This document shows positions 47,829-59,417 of a stretch of 64,000 bases of DNA, piece by piece. A model generated the notes under the pieces. It was not told the origin of the DNA, searched no databases, and saw only the letters and a list, made by a program, of their open reading frames with translations. The position numbers were made by a program, and so were the translations under genes. Each line of letters starts with the position of its first letter. The first letter of the stretch is position 1. Where the stretch lies: NCBI RefSeq assembly GCF_017464355.1, contig NZ_JAFUAG010000041.1, positions 186,001 to 250,000 of the forward strand, read 5' to 3'. This stretch comes from Ruminococcus sp. (GTDB taxonomy: Bacteria > Bacillota > Clostridia > Oscillospirales > Ruminococcaceae).

Positions 47829-48058
47829 TGATCAAATCTGCTGTGCAAGATGACGAAAAAAGTAAGCAAATCGTGTGCCGATCGACCAGTCAGAATCCGA
47901 CCAGTTGTTTTGTCTGATATTATATCATAAAAGCGTGAATTTGTCAACTGTATTGCTGGTTTGTCAATGATGTGATACAAGGATTTCAAAAAAAGTTCAT
48001 CGTTGGAGAGGAATTCGCTGATATAATCAGCAGGAGAATTCCAGTTCAATGGACGCAT
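47825..48058 (-). CDS. Doubtful small ORF upstream of the GIY-YIG-like gene
   Basis: A 77-residue frame from ATG 48058 overlapping the next start by 4 nt (GTGA). No SD and no family recognised, so it may be chance. The 330 nt between 48059 and the toxin fragment hold no supportable gene, only a small hairpin near 48150 and a terminator at 48218. Confidence 0.25.
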   Translation of the reverse strand: MRPLNWNSPADYISEFLSNDELFLKSLYHIIDKPAIQLTNSRFYDIISDKTTGRILTGRSAHDLLTFFVILHSRFDQ

Positions 48059-48217
48059 GGGGAATTTGTTGTATTTTCTGCTGTGTACAGCAAGCTGCTT
48101 TTTAAAGTCTTCAAACGAATAAAACTTATGCGTTGCATACTTTCTTTATGCACACCTCGGTGCACATACTTCTATTATGACCTATCACGCCCGAAAAAGC
48201 AAGATATAGCGCCGTTT

Positions 48218-48253
48218 CAGGGTGTCTCATTTTTGAAACGCCCTGTTTTTTTT
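48218..48253 (+). terminator. Terminator upstream of the toxin fragment
   Basis: CAGGGTGT/ACGCCCTG (48218-48225 with 48238-48245, one G-T), 12-nt loop, eight Ts. It ends no intact gene here and may be left over from a deleted one. Confidence 0.8.
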
Positions 48254-48391
48254 AGAAAAACGTCTATGTTTCATATCTTTCGGGAGCAGTACTGCTTCAT
48301 CAGCTGCAAAGTCACGCTTACGGGCACCGCTGCTGTAATAGGCAGACAGCTCACCGAGGAGCTTTACACGTTCTGGAGGATACTCTTCCTT

Positions 48392-49330
48392 TTGTCTGAC
48401 CCAACGGACGCTGACAGCGATGATGACTTTGCTGATGATCTGGTAGAAAAAGAAGCAGGTTCAGATCCGTTTTCAAAAGATACTGACAAAGACGGTCTTG
48501 ATGACGGCAAGGAGATAGTTATCGGTTTTGACTCGACTTCTGCCAATGCTGACGGAGATGTCCATGATGATCTCAGCGATTTTTTGCTGGGCTTTGAACC
48601 TAATAGTTATGATGATGACCTGGGAGACTGGGAATTCCAGTTCATGGAGGGCTTTGTCAAGGGTGATTTTATAAAGGACAAAACTGTAGCCAATATCGTA
48701 GGTCAGGTAACTGCCTCAATGTGCCCATATACTGATAAGATAAGTGATGCAAGAGATATTATTGCTGCTATGCTGAGTGGTTCAAAAATGGATACCTTCA
48801 CTAATGTCATCGGGGCTATTCCCGGGCAGGGAGATCTTATCAAGGGTGGAAAAGAACTAAGTATATTTATATCCAAGCACGCTGATGATTTTCCTAAAGT
48901 CGCTAAAGCAGTTGAAAAAATAACCGTTAAATTTCCTCGGATAGCAAAATATATTGATGTTGATGCTGCTGAAGCAGCTGCCAACGGGCTGAAAAACACC
49001 GTAAAACTCTCCAAACGGTCTATCGTTCAGCTTGAAAAGACTTGCAAAAATGCGGGAAAAGTGGTAGAATTAAATAAGAACCTTGACAAAACATTAGAGC
49101 TGTCACAAAAGGTGCTGGATTTCAGCCAGAAAAGTGAGGAATTCTTCGATGCCCGTGACAAGGACAGCAGCGGCAGTGACGGTGACGATGGTGATAACGA
49201 CAGGAACGAAGAAGATGATGACCCGATAGCAAAGGCTATTGAAAGAAATAAGTATAAAAATATTTATCAGTCTCCTGAGTTTGAAGAAGTATTAACTAAT
49301 AATGTAGACGGTGCTTTCTATATAAAGTAG
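48392..49330 (+). pseudogene. 5'-truncated polymorphic toxin fragment (Ca-binding repeats and pretoxin region)
   Basis: Coding similarity starts abruptly near 48392. It has two calcium-binding thrombospondin-3-like repeats (LSDPTDADSDDD; DPFSKDTDKDGLDDG), then a pretoxin-like stretch with IPGQGDLIKGGKE, a helical region, an Asp/Ser/Gly linker (RDKDSSGSDGDDGDNDR) and a short 45-residue tail. Upstream sequence in the same frame is not protein-like, so the large N-terminal part expected for secreted polymorphic toxins is missing. An SMI1/KNR4 immunity gene follows after 12 nt. A short internal start (for example ATG near 48641) could still give a small protein. Toxic activity of the tail is unknown. 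Confidence 0.7.
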
Positions 49331-49342
49331 GAGGAGAAATGA

Positions 49343-49852
49343 ATGAAAACTATTCTTTGGAATAAAGATAAGATCATTCTACAATTAAAAGAAAGAGGCA
49401 TAAAACTCAATAAACCTGTAGATATAAATACCATAAGGGAATTTGAAAAAACGCACAACATTGAATTGCCACTGGAATTAGTGGAGTTTTATACTTCAAT
49501 AACAAACGGGTGCGTGATGATCGACGGTTTCAAATTGTATTCATTTGAAGAATGGAGATTTAATGCAGACAGAATCAAAAAACGTTTTCCCTTTAAGAAA
49601 TACTGGATATGGGAGAATGGGCAAAATGATTTATATGATCATTCAGACATTGAAAATGGTATCATAGAATTGATAGATATCGGAGATGCACAGACATGGA
49701 ACATTGTAGTAAAAGGTGAAGATCACGGCGGTATGTGGATGATCTGCGATGTTGGAATACAGCCGTGTGCTCCAAAAATGACTTTTAAAGAATGGTTTGT
49801 ATATTGGCTGGAAGGAAATGATGATTTCTTTTATGGATATCAATGCCGATGA
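49343..49852 (+). CDS. SMI1/KNR4-family immunity protein
   Basis: A 169-residue SMI1/KNR4 protein: INTIREFEKTHNIELPLELV (the conserved helix and LP motif), FYTSITNGCVMIDGFKLYSFEEW, IIELIDIGDAQTWNIVV, and the terminal FKEWFVYWLEG. In bacteria these bind and neutralise toxin tails encoded upstream, matching the adjacent toxin fragment. SD TAGGAGGA lies before ATG. AT-rich like the rest of this locus. Confidence 0.88.
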   Translation: MKTILWNKDKIILQLKERGIKLNKPVDINTIREFEKTHNIELPLELVEFYTSITNGCVMIDGFKLYSFEEWRFNADRIKKRFPFKKYWIWENGQNDLYDHSDIENGIIELIDIGDAQTWNIVVKGEDHGGMWMICDVGIQPCAPKMTFKEWFVYWLEGNDDFFYGYQCR

Positions 49853-50267: not shown

Positions 50268-51656
50268 CTACATCTCTGCCGCCAGATCTGTTTTTACGAT
50301 ATTTGACGGTATGCGGGATATTGTCTTTTTGTTCACTGCTTTCATCAATATTACCGCAAGCATTGTCACCAACACCTCAGTGATAACAAATGCGAACCAT
50401 ACCGTATTGACCGTGCCGATCTTTGAAAGAATGATAGCCGAAGTCAGCATTATAACGAGCTGTACAACAGAAGTCAGCAGCGTTTTTCTGCTGTTGCCGA
50501 GGGCTTGAAAGAATGCGCCGAGTATCAGCGTCAGTCCCGAAAACGGGAATACAAAGCTCACTATCCGCAGAGCCACTCTGCCGATTTTCAGCACCTCGCC
50601 CTGTGCATTGAACAGTGCAAGGAGAGTATCGGGGATAAGCTGGAAAATGCCAAGTCCGCAGAGGGTGATCGCTACCGTTGCGATCAGGCAGATGCGGATC
50701 GTTTTAAGTATTCGCTCACGCTTGCCTGCACCGTAATTGTACGAAATTATGGACACGACGGTATTCTTCAAGCCCCATATCGGTATCAGAACAATGCTCT
50801 GTAAGCGGACATAGATGACATAGACCGCAGGTGCAGCTTCGGTAAAGCCTAAAAGTATCTGGTTCATACCGAATATCATAGTCGGACTGATGGAATGCTG
50901 GATCGCCGCAGGAAAGCCTACGTTCCATATCTGCTTCATGGTGTCGGATTTCGGGATCAGCATACCGAGTTGGAAATGTATCTCCTTGTTGACTTTGAGA
51001 TTGAAGCCGAACGCCACCGCTGCGGCCGAGAACTGTGCAACGACCGTTGCGATAGCGGCACCTTTCATTCCCATTTCAGGTGCGCCGAGATAGCCGAATA
51101 TCAGAATCGGATCAAGTATCAGATTGACGATAGTTCCTGTTAGAAGCGAGAACATCGAGCCGATGGAGCGCCCTGTTGCTACGAGCATACGCTCAAACAT
51201 AACCTGATTTGCAACACCGAAAGAAAAGATACAGATGATTGAGGTGTAGTCCGTGCCGATACGCTGAATGGTCGCATTGTCGGTTTGCAGGCGGTAGAAC
51301 ATCGGCACAAAGAACAGCCCGAAGATCAGGAATATGCCTGCCACGATCCAGTTGACGAGAATACCGTTGCCCGCTGCTTTGTTTGCACCGTCAAGGTCGC
51401 CCTCACCGAGCTTCTTGGAAAGCTCCGCATTCATACCCACGCTGAACCCCACCGTGATGCAGGCGATCAGGCTTGAAATGGGTGTTGCGAGCGACATTGC
51501 AGTCAGCGCATTATCTCCGAGCCGTGAAACGAAAATGCTGTCGATCACGCCGTAGAGCGTTGAAACGAGCATTGAAAGTATCACGGGTACGGACATTTTC
51601 ATCATGAGTTTGCCGATAGGCAGTGTTCCCATTATGTTTTCTTCTGTGTTGGTCAT
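50268..51656 (-). CDS. MATE-family multidrug/sodium antiporter
   Basis: A 462-residue, 12-helix MATE exporter. The N-terminal half has PVILSMLVSTLYGVIDSIFVSRLGD, the second repeat starts near residue 235, and GATGRSIGSMF-type and SYNYGAGKRERILK motifs follow. It exports cationic drugs or metabolites using Na+ or H+. ATG 51656 was used; GAGG lies 10 nt upstream. It is transcribed away from lysR from a promoter carrying the same 34-nt element as the reductase promoter, so it is probably under LysR control. Confidence 0.92.
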   Translation of the reverse strand: MTNTEENIMGTLPIGKLMMKMSVPVILSMLVSTLYGVIDSIFVSRLGDNALTAMSLATPISSLIACITVGFSVGMNAELSKKLGEGDLDGANKAAGNGILVNWIVAGIFLIFGLFFVPMFYRLQTDNATIQRIGTDYTSIICIFSFGVANQVMFERMLVATGRSIGSMFSLLTGTIVNLILDPILIFGYLGAPEMGMKGAAIATVVAQFSAAAVAFGFNLKVNKEIHFQLGMLIPKSDTMKQIWNVGFPAAIQHSISPTMIFGMNQILLGFTEAAPAVYVIYVRLQSIVLIPIWGLKNTVVSIISYNYGAGKRERILKTIRICLIATVAITLCGLGIFQLIPDTLLALFNAQGEVLKIGRVALRIVSFVFPFSGLTLILGAFFQALGNSRKTLLTSVVQLVIMLTSAIILSKIGTVNTVWFAFVITEVLVTMLAVILMKAVNKKTISRIPSNIVKTDLAAEM

Positions 51657-51697
51657 TTTTATCACCTCAAAAAAATCCGCCTTGTGTTTCTACAATA

Positions 51698-51754
51698 ATT
51701 GTAGCACACAAAACGGAACAAGTCTAATTGAAATATTAAATAACCGATAGAAAA
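51698..51754 (-). promoter_or_regulatory. MATE promoter with LysR-type element (copy 1)
   Basis: Minus strand element TTTTCTATCGGTTAT-N11-ATTAGACT (51754 to 51721). Its TTAGAC forms the -35 box (51722-51727), followed by an 18-nt spacer and TACAAT (51698-51703). The -10 lies in a CTACAAT-T-ATTGTAG inverted repeat. Confidence 0.75.
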
Positions 51755-51763
51755 TTTTGATCG

Positions 51764-52648
51764 CTAAACTTTAAGTCCGCTGCCCTCGTAGGTCTGCTGA
51801 ACGAGCTTTACAAAGTCCAGCACGAACTTTCGGCTCTCGGATCTGTGGGTATATATGGCGCAGGGCATTTTTTCTTTGCAGTCATATGGTATCCACACAA
51901 ACTCGCCCGTGTGGTCGTTAAGGAAACCCGGCGACAGGCAGATGCCGCGCTCGGACGCTACATTCGTCAGCGTGGTGTTGTGGTCGGGGCTGTTGAAATA
52001 GCTGATGTTGCCCCCTGAGATAAGTCGCTGCTGCACGGATTTCAGCTCTGGCGGAGAGGTGTTGCCGATCATCAGTGTTCGCCCCGAGAGGTCGCTTTCA
52101 CGGATAATGCGCTTGCGTGAGAGCATATCGTTTTTCTTGCAGATGAGATAAATGCCGCTGTCGAAAAGGTGATGCTTTTTCACATCGTGAATGCGTTTCA
52201 TATTGTGTTCGAGGGAAAATGTCACGTCCATCTCGCCTGCGAAAAAGCGCTCCAAGTAGCCCGAATAAATAAAGTACGGCGTGACGGAAATATCGGGATA
52301 GAGCTTTGCAAACTCCATAATTATCTGCGGCAGAAAATAAAGCGCCGACCGCACTGGCATACAGATATTGATGTTGCCCTTATACTTCGAGCTGAAATTC
52401 TGCCCGTTTTCTATCGCTTTGTTAAGCTCGGTCAGGACACTTCTTATCGTCACGATGAACTGCTCGCCTGCGGGAGTGAGGGTCGCACCCTTGCCCGAAC
52501 GAGCGAATATCTCAAAGCCTATTTCGTCTTCCAACAGCTTGATCTGATAGGTCAGTGTGGGCTGTGAGATAAAGAGATTTTCAGCTGCTCGGTTGAAATT
52601 CTGAGTTCGTGCAAGCTCTGCGGCATAGGTCAATTGCTTTGTGGTCAT
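51764..52648 (-). CDS. LysR-family transcriptional regulator
   Basis: A 294-residue LysR protein: HTH (residues 1-60, QNFNRAAENLFISQPTLTYQI) and a periplasmic-binding-protein-like sensor domain (about 90-290). Members usually activate a divergently transcribed gene in response to a small ligand. Here a reductase operon lies divergent and a MATE gene lies downstream; both promoters carry the same element. SD GAGG precedes ATG 52648. Its own promoter must overlap copy 2, giving autoregulation (inference). Confidence 0.93.
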   Translation of the reverse strand: MTTKQLTYAAELARTQNFNRAAENLFISQPTLTYQIKLLEDEIGFEIFARSGKGATLTPAGEQFIVTIRSVLTELNKAIENGQNFSSKYKGNINICMPVRSALYFLPQIIMEFAKLYPDISVTPYFIYSGYLERFFAGEMDVTFSLEHNMKRIHDVKKHHLFDSGIYLICKKNDMLSRKRIIRESDLSGRTLMIGNTSPPELKSVQQRLISGGNISYFNSPDHNTTLTNVASERGICLSPGFLNDHTGEFVWIPYDCKEKMPCAIYTHRSESRKFVLDFVKLVQQTYEGSGLKV

Positions 52649-52667
52649 GGTATCACCTCAATTTAAT

Positions 52668-52724
52668 TTTTCTATCGGTTATAGGATTTTTCTATTAGAC
52701 TATTACATTATACCATGATATAAT
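52668..52724 (+). promoter_or_regulatory. Reductase operon promoter with LysR-type element (copy 2)
   Basis: TTTTCTATCGGTTAT-N11-ATTAGACT (52668-52701). Its TTAGAC is the -35 box (52695-52700), followed by an 18-nt spacer and TATAAT (52719-52724). TTTTTCTAT recurs with a 20-nt period (52667 and 52687), as expected for binding on one helix face. Confidence 0.78.
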
Positions 52725-52760
52725 GAAATTGTAAAGAAAAACTTTTATGAGGTGATCTGT

Positions 52761-53606
52761 ATGACAAACTTCAACCTGAACGATAATACAACGATTCCCG
52801 CAACAGGCTTCGGCGTATTCATGGTGCCGAACAACGGCCCGACTGAGGAAGCCGTCACGACGGCGCTGAAAGAGGGCTACCGTCTGATCGACACGGCGGC
52901 TGAATATCAGAACGAAAGCGACGTGGGGAAGGCGATGAAATAGTCGGGCATTCCCCGTGAGGAGATCTATGTGACCTCGAAGCTGTGGCTTCAGGACTAC
53001 GGCTATGAGGCGGCGAAAAAGGCAATCGACACCTCGCTTTCCAAACTGGGGCTTAACTACATGGACTTGTATCTGCTCCACCAGCCCTACGGTGACACCG
53101 CGGGTGCTTGGAAAGCCCTCGAAGAAGCGGTCAGGGCAGGCAAGATACGTTCCATCGGAGTGAGCAATCACACTGTAAAATTCCTTGAAAAGCTGCTGCC
53201 GAAAATGGAGATACTTCCCGTTGTGAACCAAATGGAGTGCAACCCATATTTTCAGCAGAAGGAGCTGCGTGAGTATCTTGCAAAGTACAATATCCGCATG
53301 GAGGCGTGGTATCCTCTCGGTCACGCAAACCGCAAGCTGCTGACCGACAAGGTGCTTGTTGGAATTGCCGAAAAATACGGTAAAAGCGTGGCGCAGATCA
53401 TTCTCCGCTGGCATTATCAGGAGGGTATCATTGCACTTCCGAAGGCGACGTCGCTTGAACATATCCGTGACAACGTCAGCATTTTTGATTTTGAACTGAC
53501 CAACGAGGATATTACTGCGATACGTTCCCTCGACAAGGGCAAGGGTACGCATGATCCCGACAATATGTCGAATGATGTGACGCTGGGTATGTATAAGATA
53601 CATTGA
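52761..53606 (+). pseudogene. Aldo/keto reductase interrupted by TAG
   Basis: Read through, this is a 281-codon AKR5-type reductase: DTAAEYQNE (catalytic Tyr), VTSKLW (Lys), LYLLHQP (His), and the C-terminal LPKATSLEHIRDN. Codon 61 is TAG (52941-52943) in GKAMK-stop-SGIPREEIY, where homologues have Glu; GAG to TAG is a single change. SD GAGGTGAT precedes ATG 52761. First gene of the LysR-linked operon. As written, only 60 residues would be made, unless translation restarts. Confidence 0.88.
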
Positions 53607-53618
53607 GGAGGAATCATA

Positions 53619-54476
53619 ATGGCTATGGTATTTGACAGAAACGAAAATAAAAAGGTCGCTGTACTGCTTGGTGCAGGCAGCATGGGAACGGCTATCCTGC
53701 GCCGTGTTTGTGCAGGAATGACGCTGCTTTTCGGTGACATCAGCGAGAAGCGTCTTGATGAAGTAAAGCATGAGTATCAGGGCTACGGCTATGCGGTGGA
53801 AACAATGGTGGTCGATGCCAACAGTAAAGAGAGCATCGAAGCCTTTGCCGCAAAAGCTGCTGAACTTGGCGAGGTGAAATACTACATTCACACCGCAGGA
53901 CATTCGCCCAATCAGGCAAGCCCCGAAAAGATCATCGACCTTGATCTGATCGGCTCGAAGTACGCACTTGATGCCTTCGGAAAGGTCATCGCAAAGGGCG
54001 GCGCAGGGCTGCTGATCTCCAGTCAGACGGGCTATATGTTCCCGCCTCTCACCGCCGAGGAGGAATATCAGATCATGACCACCCCTGCGGATAAGCTCAA
54101 AGACCTGCCCTGCCTGTCGCCCGAACGAATCACAAATTCGGGAACGGCATACATCGTTTCAAAAAAGGCGAACCACTTGCAGGTGCAGTATGCCGCAGCC
54201 CACGAATGGGGCGAGCGTGGTGCGAGAATAAACACCATAAGCCCCGGAGTGATCGTAACGCCCCTTGCTTATGATGAATTCAATGCAAACGGTGCAGGCT
54301 ATCAGCGAATGATCGACGCAACACCTATGCGCCGTGTGGGTTCTCCCGATGAGATCGGTGCGGCAGGAGCGTTCCTATTAAGCGATGCCGCAAGCTATGT
54401 GACGGGCACAGACCTGCTCGTTGACGGCGGAACGATAGCGGCTCTCAAAAACAAGAAATTTCAGCTGGGCAGGTAA
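53619..54476 (+). CDS. Short-chain dehydrogenase/reductase
   Basis: A 285-residue SDR with an altered cofactor loop GAGSMGTAI instead of TGxxxGIG, catalytic Ser in ISSQTGYM, Tyr/Lys in AYIVSKK, and the C-terminal VTGTDLLVDGG. It is clearly related to the SDR at 58587, sharing the ISSQ-(T/S)-G, LT(A/V)EE and GARxNxIxPGxIVTPLAxDEFN stretches. The substrate is unknown. It lies 12 nt after the broken reductase, in the LysR-linked operon; SD GAGGAGG. Confidence 0.88.
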   Translation: MAMVFDRNENKKVAVLLGAGSMGTAILRRVCAGMTLLFGDISEKRLDEVKHEYQGYGYAVETMVVDANSKESIEAFAAKAAELGEVKYYIHTAGHSPNQASPEKIIDLDLIGSKYALDAFGKVIAKGGAGLLISSQTGYMFPPLTAEEEYQIMTTPADKLKDLPCLSPERITNSGTAYIVSKKANHLQVQYAAAHEWGERGARINTISPGVIVTPLAYDEFNANGAGYQRMIDATPMRRVGSPDEIGAAGAFLLSDAASYVTGTDLLVDGGTIAALKNKKFQLGR

Positions 54477-54477
54477 A

Positions 54478-55005
54478 ATGAAAGCGCTGTTACTTGTACT
54501 GCTGCTTCTGCTGAAAGGCTGTACGGCAGAGGGAGGAAACACCTCATTAAAATTGGCGACAACGCTCGAAAGCGGTGATGATATGAATTATTACGACTTT
54601 TCCGCACTTACAAATGTGGAGCTTATAAATGCAGAACTCGGCTCTATGACCGATGAAGAGCTTGCTGTTCTGTATGCACAGGCGAGATACTGTCAGGCTA
54701 TGACCAACGGGGATATTGACACTATGCGTGATCTGGTCTCAGAGGATATGACTTACACCCACATGAGCGGAATGACACAGACCCGTGAGGAATATTTTGC
54801 AGACATTGCTGGCGGCAGCCTGCGGTACTTCACTATCGGTATGGACAGCCCGACTGTCGAGGTCAGCGGTGATACCGCAAGTGTGACTTATACATCAGTG
54901 CTGAATGCCAATGCTTACGGCGCGAGAGGAACTTTCCGCATGAAAGGCACACATTACTGCGAAAAACGTAACGGCGAATGGATAGCTGTTAATTCACCTG
55001 AATGA
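54478..55005 (+). CDS. Lipoprotein with NTF2/SnoaL-like domain
   Basis: A 175-residue protein. A short Leu-rich signal ends LLKGC (likely lipidated Cys15). The mature part has an NTF2-like cone fold pattern: AQARYCQAMTNGDIDTMRDL, MTYTHMSGMTQTREEYFADI, VSGDTASVTYTS and a terminal TYC-like HYCEKRNGEWIAVNSP. Such domains bind or isomerise small hydrophobic molecules. The ATG is 1 nt after the SDR stop, with GGCAGG before it; an internal ATG 54583 could give a cytoplasmic form. Confidence 0.8.
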   Translation: MKALLLVLLLLLKGCTAEGGNTSLKLATTLESGDDMNYYDFSALTNVELINAELGSMTDEELAVLYAQARYCQAMTNGDIDTMRDLVSEDMTYTHMSGMTQTREEYFADIAGGSLRYFTIGMDSPTVEVSGDTASVTYTSVLNANAYGARGTFRMKGTHYCEKRNGEWIAVNSPE

Positions 55006-55020
55006 CAAGGAGGGATAATA

Positions 55021-55986
55021 ATGAAAACCAGAAAACTGAAAGATATAGAGGTTTCCGCAGTCGGCATGGGCTGCATGGCGTTTTCTCACGGCTACGGGAA
55101 GATACCGTCCGAGCAATACAGCATTGAAGCGATACAGAATGCCTATCATCACGGCTGCAATTTCTTTGACACAGCGGAGGTCTACAGCCCGAATCTGTCG
55201 GGGATAGGTCACAACGAGCTGATCGTCGGCAAGGCACTGGAAGATGTGCGTGCTGAAGTGGTCATCGCAACTAAGCTTATGCTCCGTTCCGTGGGTTTCC
55301 GCAAAAGTGTTTATGACGAAGTCCGTCGTCATCTGGAAGGCTCCCTTGACCGCCTTAGAACCGATTATGTGGACATCTATTATCTACACCGAATGGGCGG
55401 TGTGCCTGTGGAAAAGGTCGCAGAAGCTATGGGCAGACTCATTGATGAGGGGCTTATCCGTGGTTGGGGGCTTTCTCAGGTCGATGTTGATGTAATTGAT
55501 CGTGCGCAGAGCGTTGTTTCGCTGACGGCTATACAGAATATTTACTCAATGGTAGAACGTGACTGCGAGCGCAGAATTATCCCATACTGCATGGAACATA
55601 ACATCGGCTTTGTGCCGTTTTCGCCCATTGCAAGCGGTTTGCTTTCGGGAAAGATAACTGCTGAAACGCAGTTTGAAAGAAACGACGATGTGCGCAACTG
55701 GGTGCCGCAGTTATCCCGTCGGAACATCGAGGGCAATATGCCGATAGTGGAAATGCTCAAAGAATTTGCGGACAGGAAAACCGCCACCCCTGCGCAGATC
55801 TCCCTTGCGTGGATGCTCCACAAATACCCTAATGTTGTGCCGATACCCGGCTCAAAAAACAAGGAGCGTATCATTGAAAACCTGAACGCTGCCGAAGTGG
55901 ATCTGACGGACGAGGAGTTCAAATCACTTGACAGCGAGCTGAACAAGCACAAGGTCTACGGACACCGTGGATTGGGCGGATTTTGA
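55021..55986 (+). CDS. Aldo/keto reductase
   Basis: A 321-residue AKR: FFDTAEVYSP (Tyr), IATKLML (Lys), IYYLHRMG (His) and the C-terminal PIPGSKNKERIIENL. It matches the general-stress AKR13/YakC-like group that reduces aldehydes with NADPH. SD AAGGAGGGA. Last gene of the plus-strand operon, ending at a bidirectional terminator. It is intact, unlike the operon's first reductase, and could compensate for it. Confidence 0.92.
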   Translation: MKTRKLKDIEVSAVGMGCMAFSHGYGKIPSEQYSIEAIQNAYHHGCNFFDTAEVYSPNLSGIGHNELIVGKALEDVRAEVVIATKLMLRSVGFRKSVYDEVRRHLEGSLDRLRTDYVDIYYLHRMGGVPVEKVAEAMGRLIDEGLIRGWGLSQVDVDVIDRAQSVVSLTAIQNIYSMVERDCERRIIPYCMEHNIGFVPFSPIASGLLSGKITAETQFERNDDVRNWVPQLSRRNIEGNMPIVEMLKEFADRKTATPAQISLAWMLHKYPNVVPIPGSKNKERIIENLNAAEVDLTDEEFKSLDSELNKHKVYGHRGLGGF

Positions 55987-57437: not shown

Positions 57438-58015
57438 CAGTTATCACTCCAATCAAGTTTCATTTTGTGAATGCTTATCATCAGAAATGCCGCTGCAATG
57501 ATAACACTGTACATCATTGCAGGCGGATAAACGGACAGAGAAACTATAAGCCCCACGACCTTTATTGCAATATCTATCCACAAGAGCCGTCTGCGTTTTG
57601 CCATGATTTCCTTCGGCATATCGCTGTCTGCCTTGTCAAGCGTTTTGCTGAGCCATATATTTGAAAATGTGACAAGCATGACAAAAATGCCGTAGAATCC
57701 CTGTGTCACACGGTTGTTGAAATCTCCGCTGACAAGGTCTGTTGCATAGGGTATCACCGAGCAGAAAAACAGCAGAACAAGCGTTACCCAAAGCGTTTTG
57801 GCACCTATTTTTTCTATCCGTTCCCACTCATTATGGATATTCACCCACATAGAACCCAGCCAGAAAAATGACAGCGTATAGGAGAAAAAGCTGTGCCGAA
57901 GCTCCCACAAAGCGGACAATGTGGGAGCTGACGGCTTTTCAAGCTCTAAAACGAGTATTGTCATGATGATTGCAAGCACTGCATCGGTAAATGCTGCTAC
58001 TCTGTCTTTTTTCAT
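57437..58015 (-). CDS. TMEM175/DUF1211 family potassium channel-like protein
   Basis: A 192-residue, roughly six-helix protein beginning RVAAFTDAVLAIIMTILVLEL, the TMEM175 signature (R, F-T/S-D, AI..T). Bacterial members form tetrameric K+ leak channels. It overlaps the acetyltransferase by 4 nt and the flavodoxin by 1 nt, so it is co-translated. Why a K+ channel sits in a redox operon is not clear. Confidence 0.9.
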   Translation of the reverse strand: MKKDRVAAFTDAVLAIIMTILVLELEKPSAPTLSALWELRHSFFSYTLSFFWLGSMWVNIHNEWERIEKIGAKTLWVTLVLLFFCSVIPYATDLVSGDFNNRVTQGFYGIFVMLVTFSNIWLSKTLDKADSDMPKEIMAKRRRLLWIDIAIKVVGLIVSLSVYPPAMMYSVIIAAAFLMISIHKMKLDWSDN

Positions 58016-58578
58016 TCGTTTATCCTCTTGATAACTCTCGCAGGATTTCCGATAGCCACGCAGTTGTCGGGAATATCCTTCGTTACCACCGAGCCTGTGC
58101 CGACGATCGCATTTTCACCGATCGTTACGCCTGCAAGGATATTCACCCTTGCACCGATCCACGCATTTTTCTTGATATGGATCTCTTTCGTCTTGATGAC
58201 ACGGATATTGTTCGGCTCGTGATTTACCGTGAACAGCCCGACCTCCGGTCCCATCATCACGCCGTCCTCTATTGTGATCGTACCGATTGACATAACCGTC
58301 AGACCGTGATTTGCAAAGACATTTTTGCCGAGAAACACACGGTTCGCACAGTCGATCTGGAAAGGCGGAGTGAAAAAATTGCCGCTTTCAGCCGTCATCT
58401 GACCGTTCAGCAACTCGTTTTCAAGTGCCATTACTGCTCCACGGTCAGAAGGATCGGTCGAGTTTATCTTCCAGCACAGATGTCTGCATCTGTCCATTTC
58501 GCCGTGAGCTTCACGCTGATATTTTTCATCACGGATATCGTAGCTTTTGCCCTCACGCAGTTCTTCAAATACTGTCAT
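58012..58578 (-). CDS. Sugar O-acetyltransferase (maltose/galactoside type)
   Basis: A 188-residue left-handed beta-helix acyltransferase with an N-terminal Mac domain (FEELREGKSYDIRDEKYQRE) and hexapeptide repeats; catalytic His is likely in VNHEPNN, and WIGARVNILAGVTIGENAIVG is typical. It transfers acetyl from acetyl-CoA to sugars, possibly for detoxification. ATG 58578 with GAGGTG is preferred to ATG 58590. It lies 8 nt after the SDR. Confidence 0.92.
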   Translation of the reverse strand: MTVFEELREGKSYDIRDEKYQREAHGEMDRCRHLCWKINSTDPSDRGAVMALENELLNGQMTAESGNFFTPPFQIDCANRVFLGKNVFANHGLTVMSIGTITIEDGVMMGPEVGLFTVNHEPNNIRVIKTKEIHIKKNAWIGARVNILAGVTIGENAIVGTGSVVTKDIPDNCVAIGNPARVIKRINE

Positions 58579-58586
58579 ATCGCACC

Positions 58587-59417
58587 TCACTCAGTTGGTC
58601 TTAAATCTCCATAAAAAAAGCTTGAAGTCGCACCGCCGTCACACAGGAAGGTTGAACCTGTGATGAATGCCGCCTTGTCGCTCATAAGAAGTTCCGCAAC
58701 ATTTGCGACTTCATCGGCAGTACCCGGTCTGCCTGCCGGACATTTTGCAAACATATTCTTGTAAAAATCGCCCCTCGGACCGTTGAATTCGTCTATTGCA
58801 AGGGGTGTCACGATGATACCCGGCGCAATGTCGTTGAGCCTTGCACCACGCTTGCCCCACTTGACGCACTCCGCCATAACACGCTTCTCGTTGCAGCGCT
58901 TTGCCATTTGATAAGCGTGGAGGGTATCACGGATATTTTCGGGTTTGAGTATTTCAAGGTCAAGCAGCTCCTCGGTGGGAGTCATTGCAAGCTGAAAGTC
59001 CTCCTCTACGGTAAGCTGTGGCATTCTCCACCCCGACTGACTGGAGATCGTCACACCACAGCCGCCTTTTGCAATGACCTTGCCGACTTCTTCGAGCAGC
59101 ACAGCCGTTCCGTAAAGATCGACTTTCAAAATCACTTCAATGGGAGCCTGCGAGGGAGAAACACCTGCACCGTTCACAAGGTATTTTATCTCTCCGTACT
59201 CCTGCGCCTTTGCGATCATGGCAAGAATGCTCTCACGGGAGGATAAGTCCATTTCAAAAGGCTCTACGTCAAAGCCTGCATCATTCATGATCTTTGTAAT
59301 CGTATTGCAGTTGCCCATATTCTTATCACCGAGGACGATCTTTTTTCCATAGCCTATGCGCCTTGCGATAGTCATACTGATCTGTCCTGCACCTGTGACT
59401 AACATTACTTCTTTCAT
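58587..59417 (-). CDS. Short-chain dehydrogenase/reductase, paralogue of the 53619 gene
   Basis: A 276-residue SDR with cofactor loop VTGAGQISMTIARR, Ser in ISSQSGWRM, Tyr/Lys in AYQMAKR, and FITGSTFLCDGG. Its core shares many positions with the other SDR in this island, so the two are probably paralogues placed in opposed operons. SD GAGGTGA precedes ATG 59417. It heads the minus operon SDR-acetyltransferase-TMEM175-flavodoxin-DUF4405. Substrate unknown. Confidence 0.88.
   Translation of the reverse strand: MKEVMLVTGAGQISMTIARRIGYGKKIVLGDKNMGNCNTITKIMNDAGFDVEPFEMDLSSRESILAMIAKAQEYGEIKYLVNGAGVSPSQAPIEVILKVDLYGTAVLLEEVGKVIAKGGCGVTISSQSGWRMPQLTVEEDFQLAMTPTEELLDLEILKPENIRDTLHAYQMAKRCNEKRVMAECVKWGKRGARLNDIAPGIIVTPLAIDEFNGPRGDFYKNMFAKCPAGRPGTADEVANVAELLMSDKAAFITGSTFLCDGGATSSFFYGDLRPTE

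Follow-up and report, generated by a model that had tools for sequence, protein, structure and literature searches.

A conserved two-box operator beside a lysR gene predicts a small exporter and reductase regulon in Ruminococcus

A 34-nt element that occurs twice around a lysR gene in 64 kb of a Ruminococcus genome (the whole stretch of DNA that was analyzed, hereafter the window) is very probably the operator of the LysR encoded between its two copies, which is expected to act as an activator at the promoters that these copies face. As judged from the DNA, the element captures only part of a 35-bp operator composed of two 15-bp boxes, and a single LysR is probably the activator of an exporter as well as of a group of reducing enzymes.

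Results

The lysR locus and its two operator copies

The element, TTTTCTATCGGTTAT-N11-ATTAGACT, is present exactly twice in the window, on the minus strand at 51754-51721 and on the plus strand at 52668-52701, and the two copies are identical. A preliminary description of this DNA had reported it as a duplication facing a MATE gene and a reductase operon, and both copies proved exact in sequence and position. No further match was found in the 64-kb window at up to three mismatches, and there were none in 100 dinucleotide shuffles. The distance to the start codon, put earlier at about 60-65 nt, is indeed 60 nt from the end of TTAGAC to the ATG of AKR1 (52761), the first gene of the reductase operon, and 65 nt for MATE, the latter taking the ATG at 51656, where the mechanical list of open reading frames begins MATE at a GTG (51665). 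The −35 box had been read as TTAGAC with an 18-nt spacer; this register was replaced by the better TAGACT with a spacer of 17 bp, which is how the promoter scan calls it on both sides (Table 1). On both sides, TAGACT matches TTGACA at four of six positions.

Domain and family models agree with the identities originally given to the lysR, MATE and reductase genes. In the window LysR, both the N-terminal HTH_1 domain and the C-terminal LysR substrate-binding domain score above the Pfam cut-offs. No NCBIfam cut-off is reached among the matches listed (25 of 52), and among these the named LysR equivalogs (GltC, AlsR, CysB, CynR, CcpC and others) all fall short, the best being GltC with 95.7 bits against 350. 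The exporter passes the TIGR00797 cut-off for MATE membership and stays below those of the specific MepA, FepA and NorM models. As for the operon, which was described as encoding reductases, it does contain aldo/keto reductases, a short-chain dehydrogenase/reductase (SDR) and a SnoaL/DUF4440 protein, but its first gene is broken by an in-frame TAG (52941-52943) after 60 codons. The downstream part of AKR1 matches the DkgA and DkgB models of NCBIfam below their cut-offs, with 177.3 bits against 425 and 114.5 against 327. Since the frames of AKR1 or its paralogue are intact in relatives (281-286 aa in L045, L046, L047, L050 and L052), AKR1 in the window is either a recent pseudogene or a sequence error.

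Two neighboring genes, whose families were assigned by eye, deserve mention. Adjoining MATE, at 47972-49852, are a gene for a protein with DSDxDxxxD calcium-binding-type repeats and then one for a small SUKH-immunity-like protein. A SUKH-family gene (PF09346) also adjoins lysR in R. flavefaciens SAb67 (L048 13247-13741).

Table 1. Features of the lysR locus, with positions in the window
Feature	Position	Strand	Description	Evidence or remark
MATE family exporter gene	50268..51665	−	TIGR00797 164.3 bits (cut-off 147.4); PF01554	likely start ATG 51656
Hairpin and run of seven T downstream of lysR	51669..51717	−	MATE −10 inside	fold −27.5 kcal/mol for 107 nt, z −3.71
MATE promoter	51698..51726	−	TAGACT - 17 bp - TG-extended TACAAT	promoter scan
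Operator B box 2	51727..51741	−	ATTTAATATTTCAAT	
Operator B box 1	51747..51761	−	ATCAAAATTTTCTAT	starts right after lysR stop codon
lysR	51764..52648	−	LysR-type regulator, 294 aa	PF00126 67.8 bits (cut-off 26.6); PF03466 48.3 bits (cut-off 28)
Operator A box 1	52661..52675	+	ATTTAATTTTTCTAT	center about −63 from inferred reductase transcript start
Operator A box 2	52681..52695	+	ATAGGATTTTTCTAT	center about −43, abuts −35
Reductase-operon promoter	52696..52724	+	TAGACT - 17 bp - TG-extended TATAAT	promoter scan
lysR promoter candidate	52707..52735	−	TTTACA - 17 bp - TATAAT	overlaps reductase promoter
AKR1, DkgA/DkgB-like aldo/keto reductase gene	52761..53606	+	PF00248 on downstream part	interrupted by TAG
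SDR1, short-chain dehydrogenase/reductase gene	53619..54476	+	NF005395 329.9 bits (cut-off 280)	
SnoaL/DUF4440-domain protein gene	54478..55005	+	PF14534	
AKR2, aldo/keto reductase gene	55021..55986	+	PF00248	

Architecture of the operator

After sites that share an identical 55-nt core had been collapsed into one (the L049 second site into that of L047), 23 distinct Ruminococcus-group sites could be aligned without gaps, in columns numbered so that the first base of the element as originally described is 1 and the preceding base is 0. Fourteen columns are invariant (A-6, T-5, T3, T4, C5, T6, A7, T8, G11, A14, T15, A27, T28 and A32), a count that overstates independence since the sites are related by descent. 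Eight of these columns are the AT pairs of the frame AT-N11-AT-N5-AT-N11-AT, that is, two AT-N11-AT boxes of 15 bp placed 20 bp apart, each of which is a T-N11-A LysR box. The 5′ edge of the element as first delimited was drawn too short, with A-6 and T-5, invariant in all 23 distinct sites, left outside. The boxes are AT-rich, and the AT frame turns up in 1405 of 20,000 random 260-nt pieces, with more expected in AT-rich intergenic DNA. On average, boxes 1 and 2 share 11.3 of 15 positions when offset by 20, and no other offset between 10 and 30 gives more than 6.8. Dyad symmetry reaches its maximum at the box centers, positions 1 and 21 (4.17 and 4.22 pairs of 7), and almost equal at one other center, position 28 (3.83).

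The promoter beside these sites consists of TAGACT or a variant of it, a spacer of 17 bp (20 of the 23 sites) or 18 bp (the other 3) and, again in 20 of the 23, a TG-extended −10. When the transcript start is taken 7 nt after the −10, the box centers fall near −63 and −43; box 1, the T-N11-A box centered at about −63, is present in 23/23 sites, and in both operators of the window box 2 runs up to the base that precedes TAGACT, so that it forms a second site reaching the −35. In the available part of PMC4834489, the LysR layout is described as a primary T-N11-A site near −65 and a secondary site reaching past −35. The layout of a LysR activator next to −35 that was proposed for this element is therefore borne out, as far as that part of the source goes. 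The portion of PMC6018408 at hand puts the average LysR box at 15 bp and the gap at six or seven.

Candidate promoter and probable terminator of lysR

The TTTACA-17-TATAAT of the candidate lysR promoter (Table 1) recurs with unchanged spacing to the operator in 7 of the 27 sites inspected, or 8 when one with a single base changed is counted, and is missing from the other sites of the 27, including four flanked by lysR and a divergent AKR gene and four distant ones. The hairpin downstream of lysR is probably the lysR terminator. Similar hairpins occur in relatives, and eight folded leaders (seven downstream of lysR plus that of the site on contig C19 described below) form hairpins of −16.6 to −26.3 kcal/mol, built on two unrelated stem sequences. 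A simple terminator scan did not call the hairpin in the window because its loop limits and requirement for a gapless stem do not fit it. Since the MATE transcript would start inside this hairpin, its RNA should be without the 5′ arm.

A third site in the genome

In the source genome (G000; 3,475,933 bases in 49 contigs), the sole further match at up to three mismatches is a third copy, with one mismatch, on contig C19 (24346-24378), and the reversed-pattern control gives 0 matches. This copy, which the preliminary description did not include, precedes by about 66 nt the start codon of a gene for a calcineurin-like phosphoesterase of 369 aa (metallophosphoesterase, MPE). A profile built from 18 of the 23 sites (L046+7445, L048-11952, L052+9740, L008 and L001 being left out) finds these three sites in G000, with E values of 6.8e-17, 3.0e-15 and 3.5e-14, followed by a next match at 0.058. 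Weak profile matches in other genomes (G227:C4, G224:C19 and G228:C127; E about 1e-3) were not counted, their best PWM scores being −5.3, −1.4 and −4.0.

In the relative G113, the element is followed by MPE as the next gene downstream of lysR, the place that MATE occupies in G000. The G113 protein, which is split into several frames, is 89% identical over 212 aa to that encoded on C19. Since MPE stands behind the same element at both places, it kept its operator on relocation. The C19 operator overlaps the end of a 39-codon cysteine-rich frame (CQLCGKTC...CKEC; L019 1412-1531), which looks like a zinc-finger-type gene remnant at the start of the operator-MPE segment.

Co-occurrence of the element and lysR

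Among 29 genomes of the genus, LysR is found in one (G000; E 1e-40), which is also the only one with the element at up to three mismatches, and the reversed control pattern has one match (G206). At the family level, LysR is present in 2 of 197 genomes, G000 and G113, and the element in 8 of 396, with up to two mismatches in G000, G113 and G331 and as single 3-mismatch matches in G100, G078, G269, G051 and G017. None of these last five has a LysR match at E 1e-20, and the reversed control matches in three of the 396 (G133, G322 and G379). G331 retains a LysR remnant, 84% identical over residues 226-294, on another contig than the element.

Conversely, the element at up to three mismatches accompanies LysR in 10 of the 11 genomes that carry it (one of them only in pieces), a set that comprises 10 loci plus G113 and omits L011 and L012, in which only residues 1-76 match (53 and 51%). 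The remaining genome with lysR, G223, has a decayed copy only, with 5 mismatches and no recognizable −10. The preliminary description was to be refuted if relatives showed no conserved association of the element with lysR, and it was not refuted: the two either occur together or are both missing.

Target genes in relatives

The operator is retained before seven kinds of genes: AKR1, an AKR1 paralogue, MATE, flavodoxin-MATE, MPE, SnoaL and AKR2. A site lies upstream of AKR1 in the window and in L045, L046, L047, L048, L049, L050 and L052, of the AKR1 paralogue in L047, and of MATE in the window and L003. Upstream of flavodoxin or flavodoxin-SnoaL it is found in L046, L047 and L049, with MATE behind in two of the three. 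Further sites precede MPE (L045 and C19), SnoaL (L046) and AKR2 with flavodoxin (L050). The site of G331 (L053) precedes remnants of SnoaL and AKR2, and L048 has an additional site downstream of lysR. R. flavefaciens FD-1 possesses the same operators. In some relatives the MATE partner has been swapped for other genes, and split or truncated genes are found in many of the relatives' clusters.

Signs of horizontal transfer

RpoB of the window genome is 76.5-78.7% identical to that of the R. flavefaciens genomes G224 (SAb67) and G227 (FD-1) and of genome G226; G231 was left out of this comparison because the longest frame taken was not rpoB. Against the same three genomes, identities are 91.8-93.2% for LysR, 95.8-97.9% for SDR1, 85.0-87.2% for SnoaL and 90.9-93.8% for AKR2 (over 88 aa only in G226), with 96.1% for MATE (G226). 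Against G113, they are 85.7% for RpoB, 94.2% for LysR and only 83.4% for SnoaL. Together with the patchy occurrence, these identities make the lysR cluster look horizontally transferred among these bacteria. Just upstream of lysR in Ruminococcus sp. UBA4350 (L003 324-1976), a 550-aa protein that by eye resembles large serine recombinases is encoded, and it is a possible vehicle for such transfer.

Operators beside more distant LysRs

Across 394 genomes of the order, LysR is detected in 6 at E 1e-45 (G000 and five others). Four of the five others, whose LysRs are 52-57% identical and which carry three family labels, have the operator between lysR and a divergent flavodoxin or AKR operon, with PWM scores of 37.1, 30.4, 27.1 and 20.0. 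The fifth, G666 (LysR 44% identical), has no site beside lysR. For comparison, the PWM maximum in 3 Mb of random sequence is 1.7 when it is window-like and 10.6 when it is promoter-like. Chance similarity as the source of the copies is ruled out by these maxima together with the shuffles and the reversed-pattern control.

At the phylum level, LysR occurs in 7 of 398 genomes at E 1e-60 (G000 and six others), and five of the six loci could be scored by PWM: 21.0, 19.3, 10.1 (L118, at the edge of the chance range), 6.0 (L116) and 0.3 (L117), the last two inside that range. In all five the AT frame is exact and lies at a distance of 15-66 nt from the start of lysR, and a TATAAT-like hexamer stands 17 bp past the −35 position in four of them. 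The sole plasmid record with a relative, Selenomonas ruminantium pSRC1 (L115), encodes a 57% identical LysR divergent from NTF2-like, acyltransferase-like and SDR genes; its site, of the same AT frame, is weak, with a PWM score of 3.5 in the expected orientation, inside the chance range, and 11.8 on the opposite strand. Of the 14 loci tried in this survey of distant sites, L121 was left unscored, its LysR match starting at residue 96 and offering no LysR start; among the 13 regions upstream of lysR that received a score, which include that of the window and others already known, 12 have the exact AT frame, and L108 is off by one base. The operator layout thus recurs beside 51-58% identical LysRs in other families, in some copies weakly, and sites next to these more distant LysRs rule out a purely lineage-specific duplication. 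Phage records yielded no LysR relative at E 1e-30, and peptide patterns gave no match in viral contigs.

Two genes in the window, SDR2 and a LacA-like gene (58012-59417), are 77% and 67% identical, respectively, to genes beside the pSRC1 LysR relative (L115 4860-6272), and no operator was found upstream of them in the window. In 12 aligned LysRs, Cys237 and Cys263 are invariant. Residues 218-246 of these proteins are near-invariant around FNSPDH...GFLNDH, a stretch that includes Cys237 and marks the LysR subfamily.

Discussion

From the operators, their architecture, their conservation and their co-occurrence with lysR, we infer the following mechanism. A LysR tetramer could bind each operator as two dimers, on boxes whose 20-bp separation is about two turns of DNA, the distal dimer sitting near −63 on the recognition site and its proximal partner near −43 on the activation site, next to the weak −35. 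When bound to an inducer, LysR would be expected to aid RNA polymerase at the reductase, MATE and C19 metallophosphoesterase promoters. At operator A it would also cover the first tens of bases of lysR, and since this operator lies just downstream of the lysR −10, LysR is predicted to repress itself. Because aldo/keto reductases, an SDR and a flavodoxin would be placed together with MATE and a phosphoesterase under one LysR, the probable role of the system is defense against reactive carbonyls or other electrophiles through reduction and export. The detoxify-and-export role in the preliminary description is likewise a prediction; the first reductase gene is broken in this genome, and MATE gives way to other genes in some relatives.

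How far could the same sites be explained otherwise? A minority of LysR proteins repress their targets. Were this one to bind its operators mainly as a repressor, blocking polymerase at the −35 and being released or made an activator only under stress, the position of box 2 against the −35 would be accounted for, and the extended −10 could support good basal transcription. We consider this unlikely: the −35 is weak, box centers at about −63 and −43 agree with activation in the layout as published, as far as the available text describes it, and operator A, lying beyond the lysR −10 in the direction of lysR transcription, would direct repression at lysR itself. It is also conceivable that the element binds another regulator and that lysR merely sits between two of its targets, considering that the assignment to LysR is based on sequence, that the element stands away from lysR on C19 and that in G331 it is on a separate contig from the lysR remnant. 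This is very improbable given that the element and lysR co-occur in the 29-genome genus and in the family sample, and that the site, with its T-N11-A LysR boxes, adjoins LysR in unrelated lineages with different neighbors.

There is next to no likelihood, finally, that the two copies are a duplicated promoter fragment devoid of regulatory meaning. The MATE and metallophosphoesterase promoters do share their leader downstream of the −35, so that some of the similarity is copied promoter DNA; however, AKR1-type and MATE-type promoters are alike only in the operator and the promoter elements, and the operator is kept before seven gene kinds and where LysR is only 51-58% identical. An operator recognized by the LysR encoded between its copies, and used for activation, is the reading that we retain.

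Going further, we would tentatively entertain, with considerable doubt, that a LysR subfamily spread across the phylum, so far without a name, makes up together with its regulon a portable electrophile-defense module, in which Cys237 and Cys263 sense the trigger, the operator-promoter cassette moves with its cargo, and the MATE promoter is nested in the lysR terminator such that read-through is stopped while LysR-activated transcripts, starting within the hairpin, escape. The role of the two cysteines in sensing is conjecture. Examples of cargo are MPE, which adjoins lysR in one genome and in G000 lies on a separate contig, and MATE or flavodoxin-MATE elsewhere.

The system offers an operator code open to testing and a short list of targets that appears to be complete (three promoters in G000), under a LysR to which no named family corresponds among the matches listed. 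Its hosts are rumen fiber degraders that would meet plant aldehydes and phenolics. As an exporter, several reductases and a phosphoesterase would be tied to one signal, finding a single inducer would give all of them a function, and both the nesting of a promoter in a terminator and the transfer of operator-bearing genes hold small, general lessons on how regulons grow. The open-licence literature on R. flavefaciens, pSRC1 or LysR-linked reductase/MATE systems, in the parts available, contained no account of this LysR regulon.

Compared with classical divergent regulation by LysR as outlined in the accessible part of PMC4834489, the locus has the same divergent target operon, the same T-N11-A site near −65 overlapping the regulator's candidate promoter region and the same secondary site at −35. 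It differs in that conservation is equal in the proximal and the distal box, the former being nearly a direct repeat of the latter with a 20-bp period, in that a second full operator stands downstream of lysR, before a tandem gene, and in that the gap between the boxes is 5 bp, against the six or seven given in the available portion of PMC6018408. MexT of Pseudomonas aeruginosa, according to the same portion of PMC6018408, likewise belongs to the LysR family and activates an efflux pump; an oxidoreductase, mexS, is linked to it, and there is a connection to redox. The MexT pump is of the RND type, whereas here it is a MATE, and the two systems are likened by description, not by operator or sequence. 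YqhC, to which we turn for E. coli, belongs to the AraC family. YqhC/yqhD-dkgA and AaeR/aaeAB of that species, both induced by plant-derived inhibitors in the part of PMC4132294 consulted, share with the present system aldehyde reductase genes, a dkgA-type one among them, and efflux under LysR-type control; there, two separate regulators serve reduction and efflux, whereas here one LysR appears to control both. In the tetralin regulon, ThnR is also a single LysR that activates several promoters, including close divergent ones (PMC4834489, in the text available). ThnR also switches on its own gene and depends on the co-activator ThnY, and nothing comparable is indicated here. Set beside these systems, the LysR operator pair and its small regulon appear, from their sequences, to be real and conserved, and a further case of a known type of LysR switch.
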